Below, one piece after another: positions 17,428-47,291 of a DNA stretch of 64,000 bases. This stretch comes from Lasiodiplodia sp. COLG20 (lineage: Eukaryota > Ascomycota > Dothideomycetes > Botryosphaeriales > Botryosphaeriaceae), in NCBI GenBank assembly GCA_009801085.1, contig VNWV01000002.1, positions 496,001 to 560,000 on the forward strand. The letters are read 5' to 3'. Every line of letters begins with the position of its first letter. The stretch's first letter is position 1. The notes beneath the pieces were generated by a model. It saw only the letters and a list, made by a program, of their open reading frames with translations. It made no database searches and had not been told where the DNA came from. The translations under genes were made by a program, and so were the position numbers.

Positions 17428-18893
17428 TCAGCTCGAGTACAGCTGGTCGTAATCATAGCAGAGCACCCCGCCCCGGATGTCCATCACGTCTCCAACGGTC
17501 ACATTCTCAGCATTCACGCCCAGCGACAGCGGAAAATCCAACGTGACGTTCCCTCCCTGCGCATTGTCGTAGTCCATGAGATAGATTGGTCCGGATACGT
17601 CTGTCAGCCGCGCCTCCAGATCCATCGCCTGCCATGACCACCACACACGGTCCAGGTTGCAGTGGTGCATGTAGAAGATGGGCAGCATGGTTCTCAGCCT
17701 TTTGTCAACCCATGGATATCGAAGGGAACTTACATCTGAAGGGCTTGCGTACAGATCGCCCATCTGGCCGTACGTTCCACCAACACCGTAGTGGCCACCA
17801 CCGTGAACGCCAGACGCGTCAAATGATGGGCCGCCCTCGACGACCCTGTCGAACCAGCCGAAGTCTGGCTGACTCAGAGTCACTTGGGTTTGGTTCATCC
17901 CAAGATATCTTCCGGCAAAGTACGGACTAAAGTCGCGTGCGAGGCAGCGCGGATTGCCGCTGAGGTCGCTCAAGGGTCCCAAGTTGACTGTCAGGTTCGC
18001 AAACGGACCGTCCTGGATGCAGCCTCCGCCGGTGCGGCCCGGAACAGAGAGCGGATCCGACGTGTTGAGTGGGATGAGCAGTCCATTGCCTCCAAAGCCC
18101 AGTATAGGATCAAACACCGGCGAAGCCAGGAAGTCTGTCTCCGAAGTTACATCCAAGGTCCAGTCCCAGTACGGCTGGGCTCCTGTGTAGCCGCATTCAT
18201 TGCGGAGGCCTCTCTCATATGCCGCCGTGAACCACCGGTGCCAAGCGAGGAAATGGCCCTGCGTGGAGCTGTTAGCATATGACCGTTTAATCGAAATGTG
18301 CCGCGGACTGCCGATCCGGCTTCGACACCGAATCGAATGCCGAACTCGCCCGGCACTTGGAATCAAGGCTAGGCCGAGCGAACTGAGCACATTCAATCTG
18401 CTCTGCTAGCTGAGGAGATCTGCATGGATCGGCGCCTCCGACCTCGGCCCTACTCAATAGCTTCAACGGTCACACGGGACTGACTGACCGTGTAGTGAAT
18501 ATCAAAGGTCAATATGGGCGTTAGTTTTGCAGTGTCGACGTCAGAGGCGGCAGACATACCTGATTGATGTGCGTAGCCACGAGATCCTCGAAGCGCGAGC
18601 CGACACCGGGCGCGTCGGCCTTGGGTGTGATCGGAGGCTTCGTCAGAAAGCATTGCACCGCGGCGAGGTACTCGAGCTTTTCGTCATTCCTGAGCGTGCG
18701 CCTGGAGAAGCATTGATATCTTCAGCCTCCATCCCTGCAGATCTCCGCTCCACAGCACTTACCACTCCTTCCGAACGATGGGACGTTCACACGCAACAGC
18801 TGCATTGCTACCGTACGGAGCGGCGTCCGTCCTTGGAGCTAAGGCCAAAACCCCTAGAAGGAGGCCAGCGCCACACTTTGCAAGCTTCGTCAT
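17428..18893 (-). CDS. Secreted tyrosinase (type 3 copper oxidase), unusual splice sites
   Basis: Oxidises phenols/catechols with a binuclear copper centre. By homology there are five exons: 18763-18893, 18560-18701, 18489-18509, 17734-18258 and 17428-17682, totalling 357 residues. Residues 1-24 look like a signal peptide. CuA ligands are His88 (ATHINQ), His96 (TFDIHYT) and His105 (HFLAWHRWF). CuB ligands lie in GVHGGGHYG and in FYMHHCNLDRVWW. PYWDW and SPSD are family signatures. Introns 18702-18762 and 18259-18488 have GT...AG ends. Introns 18510-18559 and 17683-17733 start with GTATGT and GTAAGT but the homology-defined acceptors are TG. With those boundaries the frame closes exactly; without them His96 is lost or extra residues are inserted before the CuB helix. 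So this is either a gene using rare GT-TG splicing or a recently damaged gene. Family is sure; activity is not. Confidence 0.85.
17683..17733 (-). other. Intron ending in TG (tyrosinase intron 4)
   Basis: A 51-nt segment with a perfect GTAAGT donor right after SPSD and ending in CTG before PIFYMHH, where family members are continuous. The only AG dinucleotides near its end (after CAAAAG and GCTGAG) would shift the frame. Because 51 is a multiple of three and no stop occurs, retention would add 17 residues beside the CuB helix. Confidence 0.55.
18510..18559 (-). other. Intron ending in TG (tyrosinase intron 2)
   Basis: A 50-nt intron with a perfect GTATGT donor and a CTAAC branch sequence ten bases before its end, but the last two bases are TG instead of AG. 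The following 21-nt exon codes TFDIHYT, which completes the copper A site. No AG lies between the branch site and that exon. Reading through meets a stop codon inside the intron. Confidence 0.65.
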
Positions 18894-25166: not shown

Positions 25167-26652
25167 CTACCAATCGAGCTCGTTGCGCGGCCCTAGTCTT
25201 TCCCACAGGCCTAAGTCTGGGGGCTTCGTAGTTTTCAGGCAGCTCAGCTGCTTGCACACTACAGTAAGAAGCTTTATTAGCATAGGTCGAAAACAAGCTC
25301 TCCCATATTTGGCCTCTTCTTCTCGTCTTCGCAGGAGATGTATTAAGTGAGACTTACGAAGATCAGCCTGACTATACTTCTCACTGACAGATGATTCTCT
25401 GCTCGCTGGCCACACTTCCCTGCCTTCTCTTCTTTCCTCCTTCAAGTGCTTCGTCATCTCGTCCAAGATTCCCTTCTGAAGTCCACGTCCAGCCGCAGCA
25501 TCAAGCGTCTTCGTTGGTGCCGGAGATTTGGCGGCACCTAGCAGCGCTTGGACTTCATCCTTAATAGCTTGGATGGCAACATCAGCCTGCGCGTTGTCGC
25601 CGGGCCAATTCAGGTAGATATGGCACGTAAAGGCGGTCCGGGCAGCGGATGTGGGCGAGGCGGACAATGTGTACCAGAAGCGCCCGCTCGAAGCGACGTG
25701 AAGGGAGCTCATGCCGTAGGGGTCGAGGATCGAGTGCGCGCCTTGGGCAGAAATGGTGGAGAGGAAGGGCATCTTGGAAGTAATGCCCAACCATGCGCTG
25801 GGAACGATGTTGGCGGCGAAGCCGGAGCTCTCCATGTGGTGTACTACAAGGCAAAAGGTCTTTTCAGTATCGATCAGGAGTGTGGGTGTTAGGTGATGTA
25901 CCCGCTTCCTTCCAGTTGATGTCTTCGTCGAAGTCGAGCTGGGCCAGGGGAGCGGACCTCTCGGAGATGCCCCAACTCTTAGCCAAGACGTCAACGACCT
26001 TGAAATTCGGTGTTGAAACTCCCTCGCAGCTCAAGTTCACGAATACAAAACCTTGACGAGTGGTGTGAGTATGGATTTCGAAAAGTCCGTTCTGGCTCTT
26101 GTCAAAGCTCTCGATATCCTCGAATGCAGGGGCCTTGACAAGGCGCCCTCTGGTATCGTAGCTCCATCCATGGTACCGGCATCCTAGAACAGCAGAGGAT
26201 CCAGACTTCTTCCTAGCGACGGTATATGCGCGGTGTCGACAGACATTATGGAAAGCTCGGATGATGTGATCTTTGCCAAGTATCAGAAAGATTGGATAGT
26301 GGGCCAGCTGGAATGTGTGGTAGTCTCCTGGCTTGGAAAAATGGCTTCGATGGCTAAGGAATAGCCATTGCTTATAGGCATTGTCAGATGGCCTTTGATT
26401 GGATGATTCCCCGTCCGGATGGCTTACCTTGCTGAAGATTGCACGACGCTCCAACTCGAATAGTTCGCTACTGGTCCACCAATCATCTGGAAAGTCAGAT
26501 GCTCGATATGCTTCAAGCTTTGCACTATCCTGAGTAAGAGGCGCAGTCGGTGAAACCGCGCCACCGTTCTTGTCACTGACGATGTACCTATACGCTAAGA
26601 TGGCAAGGATTGCCGGCAAAATCGCCAAGAACACAGAGAAAAAAAGAGCCAT
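25167..26652 (-). CDS. Rieske [2Fe-2S] oxygenase-like protein with degenerate catalytic domain
   Basis: Related to choline-monooxygenase/CntA-type Rieske oxygenase alpha subunits. Four exons (introns 26371-26427, 25844-25901, 25259-25357) give 423 residues. Residues 3-25 are a hydrophobic N-terminal anchor. The Rieske site is intact: Cys119 and His121 in NVCRHRAYTV, Cys139 and His142 in GCRYHGWSYDTRGRL, with the normal 17-residue spacing. The catalytic domain starts normally (INWKEAV at 226-232), but where the family has E..HC...HP this protein reads S237, F240 and V245. Both iron-binding histidines and the bridging acid are therefore gone. I also see no clear ED....E..Q motif for the third iron ligand. 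The C-terminal ~90 residues are charged and unlike the family. The gene upstream on the same strand is a paralogue with the opposite defect. Inference: it supplies electrons to that partner. The upstream in-frame ATG at 26715 is an alternative start. Confidence 0.85.
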
Positions 26653-27124
26653 GGTGAGATCCGTAGCTCCCGGAAGCTGCCTTTGGTAGTGACAGCAACA
26701 GCCGTGGATATACAAGTTTCACATGGCCAGGCGACCGAAAGTTCGCATGATAAACCGTGCGTGCTTGTTCCCAATTTGGTCACGAAATCCCTTCCCAAGA
26801 GCTGTCAGGAGCACGGCAAGCAGAGGTTGAGTCGTCGATGGGCAGATGATGCGGGGATTGGATTGCGCTTCCCGTTTGGGAACAGCGTATAGATCCCGCA
26901 TGGTGGGTACGGGCCAATCATACTGTGCGCTTATGCAACAGATACCTTAGAAGGAAGCCACGTTGGGATGATGGGCAGGACAGCTGTCGGATGCTTATCT
27001 TTAGCCCGGCTCGTGCAACATGATGGTCCCGACGGTGCCAGAAAGTGAGCTTGATTCATTGTTGTGCTGATCACACTAGCACGATTCGGGTAGCTTAGGG
27101 CCACCTCATATTTTCTGCAAGTTG
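26653..27124. promoter_or_regulatory. Spacer between the two oxygenase genes
   Basis: 472 bp holding the 3' end of the upstream oxygenase gene and the promoter of the Rieske-bearing gene, both on the minus strand. No further exon of either gene is visible: the missing cluster-binding or iron-binding motifs are not encoded here on either strand. Confidence 0.6.
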
Positions 27125-28164
27125 CTAACAAACCTCGACGGCCTGCTGGTCGAGATTATGCTGTTCGAAAACCATCTCTAGAACCCGACCTTGGTAGTCT
27201 GGAAAAAAAGTCAATAAACACGCATGACTGCAGGGCAGAGGACGTACAGGCCACGCCATTTTCTTTGTTGGGGTTCAAAATACCCTCAGCGTAGACACCT
27301 TTCTCCAGATTGGCCTGAGCTTTCTCGCAGAGCTCATAGTCCTCGAGGGCAACCTGTCGCACAAATTTGAAGTACTCCTCGAATTTTTCGCCCGACTCCA
27401 TGTGGTAGTAGTCGAACTCCATGCGCGTGACATTTGGGTCTTCAGTAGGACACACGCGGAAGGAGCTCATTCCACCGCCATAGACGTTGAGGGTGCAGTT
27501 CGGAAAGAAGTAGAGGAACAGGCCATCATCGGGCTTCTTGGGGTCAGCAATGTGCTGTGAGAAGTTCTTGAAGTTCTTGACCGAGTAGAAGGTGGGAGGA
27601 TAGTAGATGGAAAAGGAGGGGTGAGTGTACTGGCAATGCAGACACTCCTGATAGCCATCAACCATGGTTTTCCAGTTGAAACGGCCCTCGTACTTGAGAC
27701 TACGGCGGTGCGGAAGCTTGGTGAAGTCGACACGAGAGAGCAGGGGCTCAAGGTCGGGGAAGAAGTCATCGAAGTCAGGAGCGTCGGCCGAGATGGTAGC
27801 AAAGAGGAGCCCTGTCGACGTGGTCCGGCTGCGCACTTCTTGATTCTTGATTATTTGACGGGTCAGCGGATTTCAGGTTGGTCGACGTGTGAGCAGACCG
27901 TTTCCTGCAACAGGACTTTCAAGTCCCCGTTCTCGGTGCGAGTCACGTAGACTGGAACCTGGGCGACTTCGTAGACGACATTGTCTTCGTGGAAGCGAGT
28001 GACAGGGCCTAACAGGTACCATGACTACTGGATTCAGCCATAGCTGGATGCAATATGCAGTCGAGCGTTGCTACCTTGAAGAAGACGGCGCGGCGTTCCA
28101 GGTCGTAGAGCTCTTGGCTCGTGTACCACGATGCAGGCAAGGTTCTGGGAAGATCAGGAGCCAT
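27125..28164 (-). CDS. Choline-monooxygenase-like catalytic subunit lacking the Rieske cluster subdomain
   Basis: Four exons (introns 28025-28074, 27846-27898, 27199-27247) give 295 residues; complete relatives are about 370-430. The start matches the family (SWYTSQELYDLERRAVF, residues 12-28), as do the first Rieske-fold strands (WYLLGPVTRF, VPVYVTRTENGDLKVLL). It then jumps from residue 72 directly to EVRSRTTSTGLLFATI, the segment that normally follows the cluster loops. About 55 residues with the Cys-X-His and Cys-X2-His pairs are absent. The catalytic domain is complete: FNWKTMVDGYQECLHC with Glu139 and His142, YTHP with His147, and ALEDYELCEKAQ with Asp241 as likely third ligand. The ending GVAYYQGRVLEM is canonical. 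No membrane segment. It needs an external electron donor; the adjacent Rieske-bearing paralogue is the obvious candidate. Intron 2 has a weaker donor (GTCTGC). Confidence 0.85.
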
Positions 28165-28483: not shown

Positions 28484-30692
28484 ATGGGGATCAACGGGCA
28501 AGCCTCCATTTTCCCCATCGACGCTCTCTATTCTAACGAATCTCCAGAATCTGGGACATTTTGGGCGATGGCGAGATCACGCCTATTGCCCGGCTTGCTT
28601 CCGACCACTTCCAACGGACCGGCCGCCCGCTGCGCATTGCCGTCGACGAGGCCGGCTGGCGTTTCTGCAATTTGAATCCCCATCAAGTGAAGGCGATCCG
28701 CGAGAGTACGACCGTATCCCAAAGCTCCCTTCTCCATCTCTATGCTGATCCGCCATCATGACAGAGGAACCGGCCGCCAACCCCGTCGAGAAAGCCATCC
28801 TGTACCGAATCCTCAAGCTGTTGAAACTCAACATCCAGCTTCTCTTCGTCTTTGACGGCCCGGGAAGACCCTGGAAAAAGGGCAAGACTGCTGGCATGAT
28901 CAAGTACAAAGACATCGACACTCTGCGTCGCCTCCTTGGCCTCCTTCGCGTTCCACACCATTGCGCCCCCGCCGAAGCTGAAGCAGAGTGCGTTCGACTA
29001 CAACAGGAAGGCATCGTGGATTCTGTGTGGTCCGAGGACAGTGACAGCCTTATGTTCGGATGCACTTTGCTCATTCGCAACCTACGTGACAAGGACAAGA
29101 AGAGCGACACCCATGTTAGAGTCTACCGCGCGAGCGACCTATGGGAAAAGAAACAGCTGGATCGCAATGGCCTCGTTCTGATTGCCATGCTGGCTGGCGG
29201 TGACTACGACCCTGTTGGCGTCAGGGGATGTGGTGCAAATCTGGCCTACAGAGCCGCAAAGCGTGGCCTGGGAAACACCCTGTGCCAGACTCCGGACAGG
29301 GAATTGTTCTATTTCCGCGACCACTTACACCCCCTCTTCCGTGGCAAAGACGTCGAGATCCCCCATGACTGGCCTAAGCTAAGACATTTGAACAACTACC
29401 GGAACCCGAAGGTATCCAGTCGTGAAGAGCTGCACGATTTGAACGCCCTCAGGAACAACGGCTGGGATCGTGAAATTGATCAGCCTAAACTGCGCACTTT
29501 TCTTCAAGAACGCTTTCAAATCTGGACCAAGAGCTACATGAAGCACATTTTGCCTGTTCTGCTCGTTCGAGCTCTATCCAAAACCGCGCTTTCTCCCATG
29601 ATTTCGAATCCTTACTCGGTCGAAATTGTTCGCTCAAGGAAGCAACAATCTGCTACCGAGTGCGAGGACACGCTCACTAGGAAGATCAAATTCTTACCGC
29701 ATAACCTGGTCGAGTTCGATTTGACTGTGCCTCCAAAAGAAGAGGACTGGTCGAAGCTGGCAACGAAGTCTGACGGCGCATTTGACCCCGGATCCAAAAT
29801 AGACTGCGAGGTTTTAGAAATCGTTCTTCGAACCTCTCTTCCAGCGTCGCTTTTTGAAGCGCCTGCCCCAGGGACACCCTCTGGAAGGCGAAAAAGGAGG
29901 GCCACCGGACATGACAGCGCTAATGTGGAGTCTGCTGACGTTTCAAGTGGCTCACTGGCGCCCGGAGTCGAGTTGGACAGCGTAAATGAACCAAGAAAAC
30001 GAACGAAGACGAAAAACACAGGCAGTCATACCGCTGAACGCAATGAAGTTGACAGAATAGTTGAGAGAATGATGGGTGTTCGTCGACGCCAGACCGTGGG
30101 CAACAGCAATGCCGGTCGTATGCTCAACTCAGGCTCCAACGCCACTGCGCGTCCGCGCCCTGTCCTTCAAACGCTACCTGATTTGCCAGACGTCATGCAA
30201 CATCGCGCTACTACTGACATTGTTGACCTTGGATCCGAAAGCGAGGACGAGCTTCCTTCACCCTCCAGACTTCTCTCGCCGGCCAGAACTCAGCCATCCG
30301 CATCTGACCAAAGACGGCAATACCGACTACATCATACCGGTAGTCCAACAATCGTGTCAGCCGGGTCCGCTAAGGGGTCCCGACTAGCGCCCAACCCGCA
30401 ACCTAGCTATGACGCGGAGTCGTTGGCAGCGCCGGCAATTACCGCGGCAACACATCGGTCTGCGCCATGTTTAACACAGCCACCGGTCTCTGGTACGGCA
30501 TCTGCTCCCCGGCAACAGGTGGTGGCAGAGCCATTTTCCGTGCGTGATGCAGTGCGTGCCCATTGGTCACGTTTTAATCCAACGGCCTCCAGCCGCGATG
30601 GCAAGACGCAGGAACCGTCTAGTACAGGCGTATCTCGAATCCCAAAACCTACAGCAAATGCAATCGAATGCATTGACTTGACCAGTGATTGA
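28484..30692 (+). CDS. GEN1/YEN1-type XPG-family structure-specific nuclease
   Basis: Flap/Holliday-junction nuclease family protein acting in recombination intermediate resolution. Three exons (introns 28498-28547, 28706-28764) give 699 residues. Exon 1 is 14 nt and its intron has a GC donor (GCAAGC) with a normal CTCCAG acceptor; splicing yields MGINGIWDILGDGE, the expected XPG N terminus. Acidic metal-binding residues are in place: VDEAGW near residue 36, FVFDGPGRPW, APAEAEAECVRLQQEG with the I-region acids, SEDSDSLMFGC, and GGDYDPVGVRGCG. An XPG-I and helix-hairpin-helix segment follows to about residue 230. The C-terminal ~300 residues are disordered and Ser/Arg-rich, with GRRKRRA and PRKRTKTKN basic patches that look like nuclear localisation signals, and the protein ends ECIDLTSD, resembling a SUMO-interacting motif. 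FEN1 and RAD2/XPG are less likely because the N and I domains are close together and no PCNA box is seen. Confidence 0.88.
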
Positions 30693-32400: not shown

Positions 32401-34471
32401 ATGTTACGGTCGATATTGCCCTCGCTGCTGCTGGCCGCAGCAGCCTGGGCCAAGGAGCCTACACTCCAGGTTCACGACGATACCTTCATTCCAGATGCCG
32501 TGCTGCGAGTCACCGAGGGCCCCACAAGCATAGGATGTATCGAAAGAGACTCGGTCGTCGTCAACGGGACCGTACCGGGCCCGCAGCTATCATTCGTCTC
32601 GGGCAGTGTCGTGTGGATCCGTGTCTACAATGACATGCCCAATGAGAACCTCACAATGGTAAGCAGCATGGACAATGTGTGCTGAGGCAGTGACTGACAT
32701 GTGGCAGCATTGGCACGGTCTGACGATGGCGACCGCCCCATTTTCCGACGGAAGCCCAGCTGCGAGTCAGTGGGCCATTGCCCCTCTAAAGTTCTTCGAC
32801 TACGAAATCAACCTGGCCGACATCCAGCCGGGAACGTACTTCTACCATTCTCACGTCGGCTTCCAAGCCATCACTGCCACGGGGTCTTTGATCATCACCG
32901 ACAAGCCGGGCGAGTCACCGCCCTATGAATACGACGACGAGCGAGACCTTGTATTCACCGACCTGTACAACACCACGGACCATGATATCGAAGGTGGGCT
33001 TGGCGCGAACCCGTTCAAGTGGAGTGGCGAGGTCGGCGGCGTTCTCATCAACGGCCACGGCATCTCGTCGTACACCTCGACCAACGACGACGACAGCTGC
33101 AGCCTGGCGCGGATTTCGGTCGATCCGGGAAAGACGTACCGCCTACGGCTCATTGGCGCGACCGCTCTCTCTTTCTTTACCATGGCCATTGAGGACCACA
33201 ACCTTACCATCATCGAGGCCGATGGCGCCTACACGGAGCCTGTAGACGTGTCCTTCGTCCAAGTTGGCAATGGCCAGCGCTATTCGGCACTCCTCAAGAC
33301 GTGGACTTGCGACCAGCTCGCCGGAAATGCAGCCCGCGGCCGCCACCAATTCTATCTTCAGCTCGAGACGCGCGACCGTCCGAGCAGCTTGACGAGCTAT
33401 GCCGTCCTGGATTATGGTGCTGCCTGTGGAGGCCCCCCGTCCTATGCGTCCCGCCAGATTGGTGGCAACTGGCATGGCAACAGCAACAAGTACGGCGGCG
33501 GTGGTGGTGGCGGCGGCGGCGGCAACAACAACAACTACGGAAGCACCAACAGCAGTAACAATTACGGCCCGATCTCGACAAAGACGCCGCCGAAGACGCC
33601 GCCAATGCAGCTGCCACCGACGGTCCAAGGCTGGCTTGACGATGAACTCAATCCCCTGACTCCGCGGCCGGACTTCCCCACGGCGGACGAAGTGACGCGG
33701 ACGGTAGTCATGGACATCCAGCAGATCAGCGACAACGGGGGGATCCGGTGGGTGCAGAACGACATCTCGTGGTACGAGGAGACGCCGCGGGTGCCTTACC
33801 TCGTCGCGCTCTACACCAACGCCAGCCAATGGCTGCCCGACTACGAGACGGCCGTGGCCAGCGGCACGGGACGCGACGCGCGGGTGGCGGCGTGGCCGGC
33901 CAAGATCGGTGAGGTGCTCGAGATCGTCATCCAGAACACGGGAAGCTACTCGGGTGGCGTCGACAGCCATCCAATGCACTTCCACGGCGCGCACTATTTT
34001 TATCTGGGCAGCGGTCCCGGCACGTACGACCGAGCGGCCAACGAGGCGAGGCTGGCGGGCCGCACGCCGGTGACAAGGGACACGACGATGCTGTACCGGT
34101 ACAGCGAAAAGGAGGAGCCGAAGAAGGATCACAGCTGGGTAGCGTGGAGGATCAGGGTGGAGCAGCCCGGCGTGTGGATGCTGCATTGCCACATCCTGCA
34201 GCATATGATCATGGGTAAGTTTGTTGCCTTTTTCGGTTTAATGCCGCCTTGGCCGAATACGGCAAATGCAAGGAGTTGAGGTGTCGCTGACGACAATTTT
34301 TATCTGCAAACAGGAATGCAAACGGCGTGGGTGTTTGGGAACTCCTCGGACATCCTGACGCTGCCGCTGCCCATGGTCGAAGGATACCTGGTGTACGGCG
34401 GCAACGTGCTTGGAGATGACGACAATCCACCTAGCGTGGTCCATTTCTTCGATAACGATAACGAGAATTAA
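32401..34471 (+). CDS. Secreted multicopper oxidase, ascorbate-oxidase-like
   Basis: Blue-copper enzyme that oxidises small reductants and reduces oxygen to water outside the cell. Three exons (introns 32659-32707, 34215-34313) give 640 residues. Residues 1-17 form a signal peptide ending AWA. All four copper motifs are present: HWHG immediately after intron 1, YFYHSHVG, HPMHFHGAHYFYLG, and HCHILQHMIMGM. In the last motif the position ten residues after the Cys is Met, the usual axial type-1 ligand of ascorbate oxidases, which predicts a lower redox potential than fungal laccases with Leu or Phe. The middle contains an unusual low-complexity insert at about residues 345-370: ten consecutive Gly, then Asn/Ser/Tyr-rich sequence, then a TPPKTPP segment before the third cupredoxin domain. 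Several NXS/T sites are present. Substrate cannot be read from sequence; ferroxidase function is less likely because no C-terminal membrane anchor is seen. Confidence 0.92.
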
Positions 34472-42672: not shown

Positions 42673-45600
42673 ATGAGGCCCTCGAGCTGCACCGACGACG
42701 CCTGCGACGGCTTGTGCTTGCTGACTTCCTTCTTGGACCACGACGACCGCCCGACCTTTATTCTCGACGCCCACAATGGCTCCCGCTCCGAGATCTTCTA
42801 CCAGAACAAGGCCCTGCGCGATTTTCTTGGCCGTCTCTCGTCTGCCGACACCACCCAGGACATTGGCGAGCACTTTCGGGACTGGGCATCGAGATTTGAT
42901 GCCACCGCCGAGCCTGCCGACCGCACTGGCGCTGCCGCCAACATTAGCTTCGGCAGCCGCAACTGGACCAGCCGCCTGCTGCGCAGCCGCTGGAGGGTCA
43001 TCTCCGCCATCGCCCTCGACGACGAGTCCAGCCATGCCACCAAGCGGGACCGCTCGCACGATGGCGCCGACAACTTGGGCCGTGAGTCCGCCCCAGTTTT
43101 TCCAGGCACCTCCGCCGAAGAGTTGAAGGAGAAAGCCGGCTTGAGTGCACGAGACTCCTTCAGTTCCTCGTCGCTACGTCGCCTGGACTGGATCAAGGAC
43201 CCGCCAAATGACCTTCCGCCTTACTATCGCTTTCTACTCCACCATGACTGGGCTTCGACCCCTCTTGGCCCCATCACCGACTGGCCTGATCTCCTCAGAC
43301 AGACCGCCGTGACCATCCTGTCGAGTCCGGATCCACGCTTGCTACTCTGGGGTCACGACATGTGTCTACTTTACAACGAAGCTTGCCTTGCCCTGATTGG
43401 CCACAAGCATCCAGACGCTCTAGGACGCGGTCCAGCCCATGTCTTCTCCGAACTTTGGAGGCCACTCAAAAGTATTGTCGAGCTCGCAATGCACCAGGGA
43501 AAGGCCACCCGTGTTCAGGACCTGCAGTTGAGCATCAACAGAAATAAAAGTCTCGAGCTAGAGGAGACATATTGTAAGTATCGTGCTTTCCTTCAAACCC
43601 CTCACTTGCTCATCCCCTGGTCGCAATCCCCTTACGCCAGATGTCCTGGCGCGCCAAACCACCATGGTCTCTTCCTGAACCTGTTGTTGATCTAGCTCTT
43701 CTTTTTCTTCGGCCAATGCCACTTGATCATGGGGCTGCCTTCTACAGCCCCGTCGCGCAATTGTCCCCGCACATTCTCGGATGCTCCGTCGAGTGATGCG
43801 GCGTGCACTTAATTAACCACCCATGCAGGGAGCTTTACTATGTTGCCAATCATTGATTCAGACGGGACAGCAATTGGCGCCTTGGAGGAGTTTGTCGAGA
43901 CCACAAACCAAGTGATCGGAGAGAGGCGCATGAACACCCTTATTACTCTTGGCGAGAAGGCCAGCTCTGCAAAAGGCATCGAGGAGCTTTGGAGCTTGAT
44001 ACTCACGAGCCTTGAGCCCAACTCGCATGACGTGACTTATGCGCTTCTCTATTCGGTCGACGAGGATGGCGTAAGAGTTGATGAGGAGCCCGACACTTCG
44101 AAGCGCAAAAGCTGTTTCCTGGAAGGCACGATCGGGATTCCTAAAAGTCACCCTGCTGCTATACCATCTTTCGTCCTGACTGAAGGTGATGAAGGCTTCT
44201 CGGTTCCTTTCAGGCGATCATGGACGTCATCTCAGCCTGCTCTTCTTCGCGCAGACGACGGATCCCTCACTGATCCCATATCCGACTTATGTGTTGAGGG
44301 TCGCGGATTCAACCAACCAAGCACGACAGCTATCGTTCTACCAATCCCTCCGCTCAGCGGCACTAGCATTCGCGGATTTTTGATAATGGGACTTAATCCG
44401 CGTCGAAACTACGACGAAGATTATCAGGTTTTCATTCGCCTTTTGAATGACCGTCTCGTTAAAGCAGTCGCGTCAATATTCCTCCCGGAAGAGCAACGGC
44501 GCAGTCGCCAGATTATAGAGGAAACCAACTCTCGCCATGACAAATTTTCCAGAGAGCTTGAGCGTCGGAGGCAGGAAGCTGAATCTGCAGAGGCAACTTT
44601 CACAGCGCTGGCTGAATGTGCTCCTGTCGGCTGTGTTGTCTTCCAGCTCAACGGGCAGCCGCGGTGGATGAACCAGGCTTATCTCGACTTGAGCGGTCTG
44701 AAGCGCGAGGATTTTGGTGGAGACCCTCATCTGTGGTCAAGTACTGTGATCCCCGAGGATCGCAAATATGTTGAGGAACAGTGGGAAAAACTTGTCCAGG
44801 GCCATGATATCCAGCCGTTCGAGTTCCGCGTTAGGAAAACGTGGCATCTTCAGGGCTCAACAGATGAGAGTGATCGAATGGAGTCTTCTTGGGTGCTTGC
44901 AAACGCATTCTTGAAGTACAATGAAGCGGGTGATCCCCAGCGGATCTTGGCTTGGCTTACCGACATTTCCCATCAGAAGTGGAGCCAACAGTTGCAGGCC
45001 CAGAGATTGGAGGACGTCCTGGAAACTAAACGACAGAGCGAAAACTTCATCGACATGGTAAGCGTTCTTTCGCTCCTATTCTTCACTCTTACTTTCGCAT
45101 TCTTTCTTTCTGGCGTCTCGCGAACTCTACTGGGAGACACTGTACTTCAAGCGGGACGGAGAGCTAAATTAAACGTACTGTATCTGGCCTAATTCCAAGA
45201 ATACTGACAATTTTGCAGACGTCACACGAGATGCGGAACCCACTTTCTGCAATACTTCAGTCAGCAGATGGTATTCTTGGCGCCTTGGGATATGACAAAG
45301 CCGGTATCGAGTCGCACTTCCTGAAGTCTGGGCAGTTCGCGAGGCTGACGCAACCTAGATATTAAGTCCCTGCAACAGATCCGCGACCCCCTCCTGTTGG
45401 ATTCTGATACCCAGGAAATAATTATTGACAGCGCCCAAACCATTGTGCTGTGCGCCCAGCATCAGAAACGAATTGTAGATGATATCGTATGTTTTTGTGG
45501 TATCCCGTAAATGACCATACACTGACAAATATCTAGCTGGTTAGTTAAATTTTTGAAACCCAGGAGCAAATGCATGCCATGCACAACATCAAACATTACA

Positions 45601-47291
45601 GCTTCCCTTTTTACATGAGCCAACCGTGGGGGAAAGTGGACTACGGACTGACACGTATTGCAGACTCTGTCCAAACTCGATTCAAAGCTCCTAGTCATAT
45701 GCCCCGACCTTGTCCAACCGGTGACTCTTGTTGAAAGAGCAATTAAGATGTATGAGGCAGAGCTCACCAATGCCGAAATCCGACTCAGCCTCTCAATACA
45801 CCAATCTTACGACGATTTGGCTATTGATATGGTATTCCTCGACCCCTCACGTTTCCTCCAAGTCCTCATCAACCTTATTACAAACGCCATCAAATTCACT
45901 CGAGACCGGGACAAAAGAGCGATTACAATTTTCTTGTCGGCTTCACTCAGACAACCTTCCTCTGGCCATGAAAACCTTGCCTACATACCTCGCCGCTCGT
46001 CGAGATCTGAGCACACCCACTCGGATGATGGAGGACAGGGGGAAGACATTTTTCTGCAGCTGGCCGTTGAGGATACAGGAAAGGGTCTCAGCGAAGACGA
46101 GATGAAACTTCTCTTCCACAGATTCTCGCAGGCATCTCCTAAGACATATGGAGAGTATGGTGGCTCCGGCTTGGGCCTTTTCATCTCTCGAGAGCTCACG
46201 GAACTCCAAGATGGACAGATTGGCGTTGCTTCTCAGGCTGGAAAAGGAAGCACTTTTGCATTCTATATCAAGGCGAGAAGAGGGCCATCAGAATCAAGCC
46301 CGGAGATAACGACTCCCTCATCTATCGATGCACTACGCATCCCGCCTCTCCGCCGGCCGAGTTCATCCAAGCGAGCGGTGTCAGATGCCAGCAATCAACC
46401 GGAGATGATGCCACTAACAAGCCCTTCGGATCCAAGCTGGAACTATAGTCAAGTCGAAATGAAGGACGTTGCGCCTTCACAGCCTCTAGAAGCTAATTCG
46501 AAGACTCGGTTCCCTCACCTGAGAGTGCTTATAGTCGAGGTGATTCTCAACCTCCCCTCCCCTTTGTATCTCCGTTCTTAACGCATACTATGGTGTAAAC
46601 GAATACGGAATATTATTACTGATATGCTTGCTTTAGGACAATCTTATCAACCAAAAGGTTCTCTCCAAGCAACTTCGCCATGCAGGCTGCACAACGCACC
46701 TTGCCAACCACGGCCTGGAAGCGCTCGATATACTCGCCCGCAGCACCTTCGCAGCATCGCCCACATCGGAGACGCTTGTAGATATTTCTGTCTGCCTCAT
46801 GGTTTGTTGTTTTCTTCTTCTCCCCACTCCCTCTCTCCTCTCTCCTTCTCTTCCCTGCATCACCACCAGTCCACACTATTCAACACTACCTCCATCGATC
46901 GAATAACCACCCCTGTCATTCTACCTCCTTTTTCTTACCTCCTCCCTATTCGAAACAGGACCTCGAGATGCCCATCATGGATGGGCTTACCTGCGTTAAG
47001 CGCATCCGCGCGCTCGAGGCCGAGGGATCGCTCGCCCAACACGTGCCCGTCATCGCCGTCACGGCCAATGCCCGCAGCGAGCAGATCAGCGCAGCCATGG
47101 ACGCCGGCATGGACCTTGTCATCACCAAGCCCTTCCGCATCCCAGAGCTCTTGCCGCAGATGGATTCGTTGCTGAAAAGGATGGCGGAGGAGTTGAGAGA
47201 GGAAGAGGAAGAGAAAGGGGAAGATGAGGAGGACCAGAAGGCTAAAGAGCTGAATGGTGGAGAACAGAAGGGAGAGGAACGGGGCGAATAG
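42673..47291 (+). CDS. Hybrid histidine kinase (PAS-GAF-like-PAS-HisKA-HATPase-REC)
   Basis: Sensor kinase of the multistep phosphorelay feeding Ypd1 and response regulators. Seven exons (introns 43574-43828, 45058-45218, 45271-45358, 45487-45663, 46540-46636, 46802-46958) give 1227 residues. A PAS-like region lies at about 185-300 (HDWASTPLGPITDWP...LLWGHDMCLLYNEACLALIG). A GAF-like region follows at about 310-560, a short coiled coil, then a second PAS at 570-700 (CAPVGCVVFQLNGQPRWMNQAYLDLSGL). His713 in TSHEMRNPLSAIL is the phosphorylation site. N box NLITNAIKFT near 840, G1 box DTGKGLS near 907, G2 box GGSGLGLF near 936. The receiver starts at about 1055 (LRVLIVEDNLINQK), its phospho-acceptor Asp1118 opens the last exon (DLEMPIMDGL), and the Lys lies in ITKPF. 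The last ~45 residues are Glu/Lys-rich. No membrane segment is seen, so it is probably cytoplasmic. The signal sensed is unknown. Confidence 0.93.

Follow-up and report, generated by a model that had tools for sequence, protein, structure and literature searches.

Two adjacent genes of the ascomycete Lasiodiplodia sp. COLG20 encode relatives of Rieske oxygenases between which the two metal sites of this enzyme family are divided. They lie on the minus strand of a 64,000-nucleotide stretch (the window), which corresponds to positions 496001-560000 of contig VNWV01000002.1 (C12) in a genome of 43.5 Mb assembled in 88 contigs. Rieske oxygenases are usually described as chains carrying both metal sites. 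In this pair, the product of gene A has the ligands of the [2Fe-2S] cluster only and that of gene B the iron ligands only. We consider it likely, with a probability of roughly 85%, that A and B together make up a single Rieske oxygenase, an obligate heteromer of Group V (the quaternary-ammonium group, of the CntA/stachydrine demethylase type).

We reconstructed both gene models directly from the DNA. In draft models of 395 amino acids (aa) for A and 291 aa for B, Pfam recognized PF00355 alone and PF00848 alone, respectively. Gene A, the Rieske half (25167..26652, minus strand; exons 26652-26428, 26370-25902, 25843-25358 and 25258-25167), encodes 423 aa comprising a hydrophobic N-terminal segment, an N-lobe with the Rieske [2Fe-2S] domain, and a degenerate catalytic domain devoid of iron ligands. 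Gene B, the catalytic half (27125..28164, minus strand; exons 28164-28075, 28024-27899, 27845-27248 and 27198-27125), encodes 295 aa comprising an N-lobe and a helix-grip catalytic domain, with the Rieske loops absent, and is located upstream of A on the same strand across a 472-bp spacer (26653..27124). All four cluster ligands are present in A (Cys119, His121, Cys139 and His142), and the sequence following Asn-Trp-Lys-Glu reads AVHHMESSGFAANIV, which in an alignment with CntA places Ser, Phe and Val at the positions of the bridging acid and the two iron histidines. Conversely, B has Glu139, His142, His147 and Asp241, as well as Tyr137, Cys140 and Cys143. The complementary ligand losses proposed in a first-pass annotation of this DNA are borne out by the rebuilt models and the CntA alignment, and its gene spans and residue numbers are correct. 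The same annotation had raised the possibility of a hidden exon restoring the missing motif; for B this came out negative, because the flanking blocks at the site of the canonical Rieske loops are separated only by a 53-nt intron (27846..27898, minus strand, GTCTGC...CAAG), which is too short to hold such an exon. The same junction is present in a public protein of Lasiodiplodia hormozganensis (P0001), the nearest named protein, which is identical to B over the first 285 residues.

The division of sites extends to the relatives of B. A protein search with the draft of B identified 362 relatives, and all counts given below for this half rest on the best 120 of these 362. Every one of the 120 has PF00848 as its sole domain; their lengths range from 253 to 372 aa, with 106 between 290 and 340 aa, compared with 391 aa for the deposited CntA chain. 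The iron motif ExxHxxxxH is found in 120/120 and the cluster motif CxH...CxxH in 0/120. In a CntA-type alignment, the residues Glu, Cys, His, Cys, His and Asp are conserved in all 120, with gaps at all four cluster ligands. The conserved residues include a Cys-x-x-Cys pair beside the iron site (120/120), and the position of Tyr137 is occupied by Tyr in 109 sequences and by Phe in 11. Many of these iron-only halves carry the database names 'Choline monooxygenase, chloroplastic' or 'Bet v1-like protein' despite having no Rieske motif, and this naming is a recurrent misannotation. The 'Bet v1-like' name, attached to B in many species, would agree with an alternative in which B is a START/Bet v1-like ligand-binding protein that is no longer an oxygenase, the redox work of A serving something else. 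We find this very improbable, as none of the 120 relatives has lost an iron ligand, the bridging Glu or the Group V Cys pair, and the best structural matches of B are chains of CntA, a protein that ranks high by sequence and by fold for both halves.

For the Rieske half, a search with the draft of A (best 120 of 986 proteins listed) was combined with a second search that used an alignment of six halves from other fungi as the query (best 120 of 1217). Together they gave 179 different proteins: 16 that include a B-like block (the fused entries), three without an intact cluster motif, and 160 that were aligned with CntA and with a paralogue from the Lasiodiplodia genome that carries both sites. 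The cluster ligands Cys, His, Cys and His are present in 160/160 of the aligned halves, which were chosen for that motif, so the fair figure is 160 of the 163 non-fused rows. Both iron histidines are found together in 0/160. An HxxxxH-like pattern occurs within 45 residues after Asn-Trp-Lys in seven of the 160, in none of them with the acid in place. From the ligand columns across the 120 relatives of B and the 160 of A, each metal site has been retained in one family and lost in the other; the complementary loss recurs among the listed relatives of both proteins, which takes it beyond a chance occurrence in one genome.

In order to compare constraint along the two proteins, we used 21 pairs, namely 20 pairs matched by linkage (see below) and the pair from the window. 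Averaged over the pairwise comparisons, identity amounts to 0.71 in the catalytic half and to 0.67 in the N-lobe and Rieske domain of A. It drops to 0.26 in the dead catalytic domain of A and to 0.25 in the N-terminal anchor with its linker (for the latter, 134 of 210 comparisons were long enough). This pattern places selection on the live site in each protein. It also bears on the proposal that a canonical enzyme was duplicated and that A, B or both are decaying copies (pseudogenes), which would explain why the cluster loops of B are deleted outright, why the catalytic domain of A is degenerate, and why the splice signals of one B intron are unusual (GTCTGC...AAG). Yet B shows 71% mean identity over the 21 pairs with all iron ligands in 120/120 relatives, and the Rieske part of A is 67% identical with its ligands intact in 160/163 non-fused rows. 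Given this conservation of both live sites, we reject the pseudogene reading, the least credible of those considered here. A tree of 24 rows, consisting of 10 catalytic halves, 11 Rieske halves (chosen by us) and three canonical proteins (CntA and two from the Lasiodiplodia genome), places each half on one side of a branch (support 100/99 and 100/100), which fits a single origin for each half. The placement of the halves relative to CntA and the two canonical proteins has a support of 76/59, with CntA on a long branch and one row half empty.

Additional features distinguish the cluster half. A C-terminal tripeptide of the form [LIM]-[DES]-[WF] serves to load many cytosolic iron-sulfur proteins (PMC10623007; also PMC11126956), and the [2Fe-2S] cases named in the first of these include Neverland and choline monooxygenase (PMC10623007). 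The last exon of A (25167..25258, minus strand) ends in ...RNELDW followed by a stop codon, and Leu-Asp-Trp fits this tripeptide of the cytosolic iron-sulfur protein assembly (CIA) system. Among the aligned Rieske halves, 126/160 end in Trp or Phe and 73/160 have the strict tripeptide; several of the other 34 stop early or carry odd tails that resemble missed last exons. The catalytic halves end in Trp or Phe in 2/120 cases and have the strict tripeptide in none, and B in the window is also without it. The presence of the CIA tripeptide on A only is an independent sign that A carries the cluster. The N-terminal hydrophobic segment of A, MALFFSVFLAILPAILAILAYRYI (26581..26652, minus strand), is likely a membrane anchor, based on its translation and on hydropathy in relatives. 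The test asked for a 19-residue stretch among the first 60 residues whose mean hydropathy exceeds 1.6, and such a stretch is found in 89 of 99 Rieske halves (those among the first 120 with 380-520 aa and a Met start) versus 1 of 117 catalytic halves. Both the signal for maturation and the probable anchor have gone with the cluster.

The two genes are also physically linked in other fungi. Linkage was assessed by matching 88 of the 120 catalytic rows against 107 of the 179 rows in the Rieske list, where each row stands for a cluster of proteins and gives its longest contig, and rows were paired on identical contig size. We obtained 20 same-contig pairs, 19 of which have one species name on both sides; the remaining pair joins Aspergillus rambellii and A. 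ochraceoroseus. The genera of the matched pairs belong to the Dothideomycetes and Eurotiomycetes. For five pairs, the locus tags of both genes are legible and come from one genome, and they are consecutive in 5/5: Polytolypa (06583/06584), A. niger (003062/003061), Rasamsonia (5422/5421), Monascus (001500/001499) and Neocucurbitaria (062760/062750, with tags numbered by tens). A profile search of prokaryote genomes with B yielded one confirmed locus, L022 (NYXK01000188.1:51313-58490), which is itself fungal. It is filed under a Deltaproteobacteria metagenome-assembled genome, and the contig is assigned to a fungus because its B gene lies in pieces as if split by introns and because the final piece matches a protein from Rhexocercosporidium, a Leotiomycete, with 91% identity across 88 residues. 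The metagenome-assembled genome of that title seems to be contaminated with a fungal contig. In L022, A adjoins B on the opposite strand in divergent orientation, with its cluster motif intact and, by eye, no iron motif. Although the genes are divergent there instead of tandem, A and B have stayed neighbors. The 20 same-contig pairs, the consecutive tags and L022 rule out an adjacency that arose by chance in a single genome.

The 16 entries with both halves in one chain (P0138, P0140, P0141, P0143, P0154-P0156, P0160, P0171, P0176, P0245, P0284, P0285, P0288, P0289 and P0291) all have B preceding A, as in the window. The cluster motif is present in 16/16 and the iron motif in 11/16, and the C-terminal helix of B is kept in six (P0171, P0176, P0245, P0284, P0285 and P0291). 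The six entries that keep the helix could be true fusions, and the others look like merged gene models. We take the fused entries as evidence for same-strand adjacency, not for true fusion.

Structure prediction indicates that the alpha-subunit fold, consisting of an N-lobe, a Rieske lobe and a helix-grip catalytic domain, is present, and that the A part retains this whole oxygenase fold, beyond that of a mere ferredoxin. The structure of CntA suggests how two such chains could work together. Its metal sites are 44 Å apart within a chain and 12.2 Å apart between neighboring chains, where Glu205 forms the bridge (PMC7948474). With this cross-chain geometry, one good site per chain would suffice, provided that the adjoining chain supplies the other. 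In the arrangement we propose, A would be the electron-delivery subunit, its N-terminus probably tethering it to a membrane, and would receive its Rieske [2Fe-2S] cluster from the CIA system via the C-terminal tripeptide. Its old catalytic domain would persist as a fast-drifting scaffold that has kept the fold and lost the iron ligands. B would be the oxygen-activating subunit, with Fe(II) held by His142, His147 and Asp241, and its Glu139 would extend over the interface towards A's cluster, the role that Glu205 has between CntA neighbors. Electrons would enter the cluster of A from an unlinked reductase and then cross the subunit boundary to reach Glu139 and B's iron, the site of oxygen activation. 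We expect the assembly to consist of heterodimers or of a trimer of heterodimers, because a three-member ring cannot alternate two kinds of chain.

The probable substrate class is indicated by residues near the iron site. A Cys-x-x-Cys pair is found in some Group V members, and in CntA it is formed by Cys206 and Cys209 (PMC10952381), while Tyr203 of CntA makes a pi-cation contact with the ammonium group of the substrate (PMC7948474). In the alignment, Cys140 and Cys143 of B correspond to Cys206 and Cys209, and Tyr137 to Tyr203. Since B keeps the Group V Cys pair and Tyr137, the substrate of the A/B pair is expected to be a quaternary ammonium compound.

A number of observations weigh against the reading of A and B as subunits of one enzyme. 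The losses in A are not uniform: a single His remains at one or the other iron position in 19/160 and 17/160 Rieske halves, and an acid at the bridging position in 7/160, while the column of the iron-triad Asp is a gap in 159/160 and is uninformative on this residue. Three non-fused rows are without an intact CxH...CxxH, namely P0127, which is a fragment, and two Fusarium proteins, P0272, with Tyr in place of the last cluster His, and P0287, with no CxH loop; the changes in the latter two suggest decay or annotation errors. As read, the A protein of L022 does not end in Trp. The iron motif is absent from 5/16 fused entries and the C-terminal helix of B from 10/16, which is why many of these entries are probably merged gene models. 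Co-occurrence was judged among the best 120 matches per search, and exclusiveness lies outside that scope. No Sordariomycete species with both halves is found among the matches listed, in which many Fusarium species and their relatives are represented by Rieske halves, and Xylariaceae sp. FL0016 and Pseudomassariella by catalytic ones. The mirror-tree correlation between the identity matrices of the two halves (r = 0.57, with 0/2000 permutations as high) is what shared species history alone would lead one to expect. Finally, an AlphaFold model of the natural fused protein P0138 (62 aligned sequences), in which the VIA rows cover residues 332-633, shows both halves folded with a mean predicted local distance difference test (pLDDT) score of 79.7, and its predicted template-modeling (pTM) score of 0.49 leaves the relative placement of the halves undefined, so that the mixed complex is neither observed nor confidently predicted.

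This last point is compatible with a different reading, in which A is a membrane-bound Rieske ferredoxin serving several acceptors, such as a canonical paralogue or a cytochrome P450, with B fed from elsewhere and the two genes being neighbors through tandem duplication or a shared pathway. Other partners for A would be available, as the same genome has a both-site Rieske oxygenase in a single frame (C34), and no complex between A and B is seen in the P0138 model. However, the losses are complementary across the listed family, the linkage persists through the change from tandem to divergent order, A retains the complete oxygenase alpha-subunit fold, and the bridging Glu, which makes sense facing a Rieske cluster, is present in all 120 relatives of B. 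We regard the ferredoxin reading as unlikely, although it is the strongest of the rivals. The two-subunit reading, put forward in the first-pass annotation as a split heteromeric oxygenase, is supported by co-occurrence and adjacency among the matches listed (the 20 matched pairs, the 5/5 consecutive tags and L022), by the absence of a Rieske motif in all 120 relatives of B, by the DNA of B leaving no space for a hidden exon, and by the CIA tail of A, which that annotation had not taken into account; the complex and its cluster-to-iron contact are what we infer from these.

Two-chain Rieske systems have precedents outside fungi. The chains of chlorophyllide a oxygenase from Micromonas pusilla (MpCAO) reportedly divide the sites, one with the cluster and the other with the iron (Kunugi et al. 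2013). MpCAO, which consists of two polypeptide chains, gave product in vitro with the non-native reductase VanB and NADPH, and its authors regard a trimer of heterodimers as the likely form (PMC9615114). The fungal pair would resemble MpCAO as a eukaryotic Rieske oxygenase in two chains, and it has the cluster and iron sites on separate chains that co-occur in the matched cases. It differs in that MpCAO is a green-algal chlorophyll enzyme, whereas the fungal pair is near CntA by sequence and fold, is found in many ascomycetes, and bears on its cluster half a CIA tripeptide and a segment that resembles a membrane anchor. The bacterial 7-methylxanthine N7-demethylase subunit NdmC likewise has no Rieske cluster of its own and is believed to receive electrons through the one on NdmD (PMC4408171), much as proposed here for B. 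In that system, however, cluster and reductase are joined in NdmD, and NdmE, a protein resembling glutathione S-transferases, is needed as well, whereas the cluster of A resides on a catalytically dead oxygenase paralogue that has PF00355 only and no reductase domain. Particles built from two different alpha-type chains also exist, NdmA-NdmB being an example of an alpha3-alpha'3 heterohexamer in which each chain is thought to keep both sites. The fungal case would likewise combine two kinds of alpha-type chain in a particle and differs in that each chain has lost one site; alpha3-alpha'3 heterohexamers are a named form of Rieske oxygenase (PMC12445004). CntA and the stachydrine demethylase Stc2 share with B the bridging Glu, the His-His-Asp triad, the Cys-x-x-Cys pair and the substrate Tyr, but each CntA chain contains both sites, and three such chains form a homotrimer (alpha3; PMC7948474). 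Similarly, fungal proteins resembling choline monooxygenase (CMO), such as CMO1 of Scheffersomyces stipitis, belong to the same broad family and are described with both domains (PMC6157903), which neither fungal half has here.

The first-pass annotation knew of no fungal enzyme described with this make-up, and our literature search, in which subscription journals were thinly covered, likewise gave no description of the fungal A/B pair. The available part of PMC13311259 has a single mention of Rieske and nothing on such a pair, and a Fusarium transcriptome lists one 'YeaW'-like gene and gives no more on it (PMC7010643). The fungal pair therefore appears to be new in its make-up, which is well supported by sequence, the two-chain precedents MpCAO and NdmCDE being already known. 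Regarding its history and cell biology, we lean slightly towards an early single origin within ascomycetes, independent of the algal split, of a membrane-tethered quaternary-ammonium Rieske oxygenase that has a live and a dead chain, is built as a trimer of heterodimers or in some other non-homotrimeric form, employs the pseudo-oxygenase as its electron-delivery subunit, and draws its electrons from endomembranes.

A widespread, adjacent and reciprocal split would mean that the electron-transfer and oxygen-activation steps of a Rieske oxygenase are genetically separable, and it offers natural cluster-only and iron-only proteins in transformable fungi. If our reading is true, the pair clearly exemplifies an enzyme partitioned between two chains that depend on each other, it identifies which subunit the CIA machinery must load, and many database entries that name the iron-only half choline monooxygenase need correction. 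The pair further points to an unassigned fungal metabolism, probably of quaternary ammonium compounds.

Among ten neighboring open reading frames (ORFs) scanned, none has a reductase domain. About 180 kb from the pair, a 716-codon ORF (C12:705500-708800) has a Fer2 domain, with MOSC and flavin/NAD domains recognized by eye; it is a possible electron donor of the phthalate-dioxygenase-reductase type, with no link to the pair shown. Elsewhere on the same contig, a nitrite-reductase-like ORF (C12:3803300-3806300, identified by eye) ends in Gly-Leu-Asp-Trp, again an iron-sulfur targeting tripeptide. Within the window, Pfam identifies tyrosinase and multicopper oxidase domains at 17431-18405 (minus strand) and 32663-34276 (plus strand), respectively. 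An ORF with an XPG I-region (PF00867) at 28749-30689 (plus strand) is divergent from gene B, and adjoining ORFs with PAS and HATPase_c domains at 43813-46578 (plus strand) are probably parts of one sensor kinase gene.

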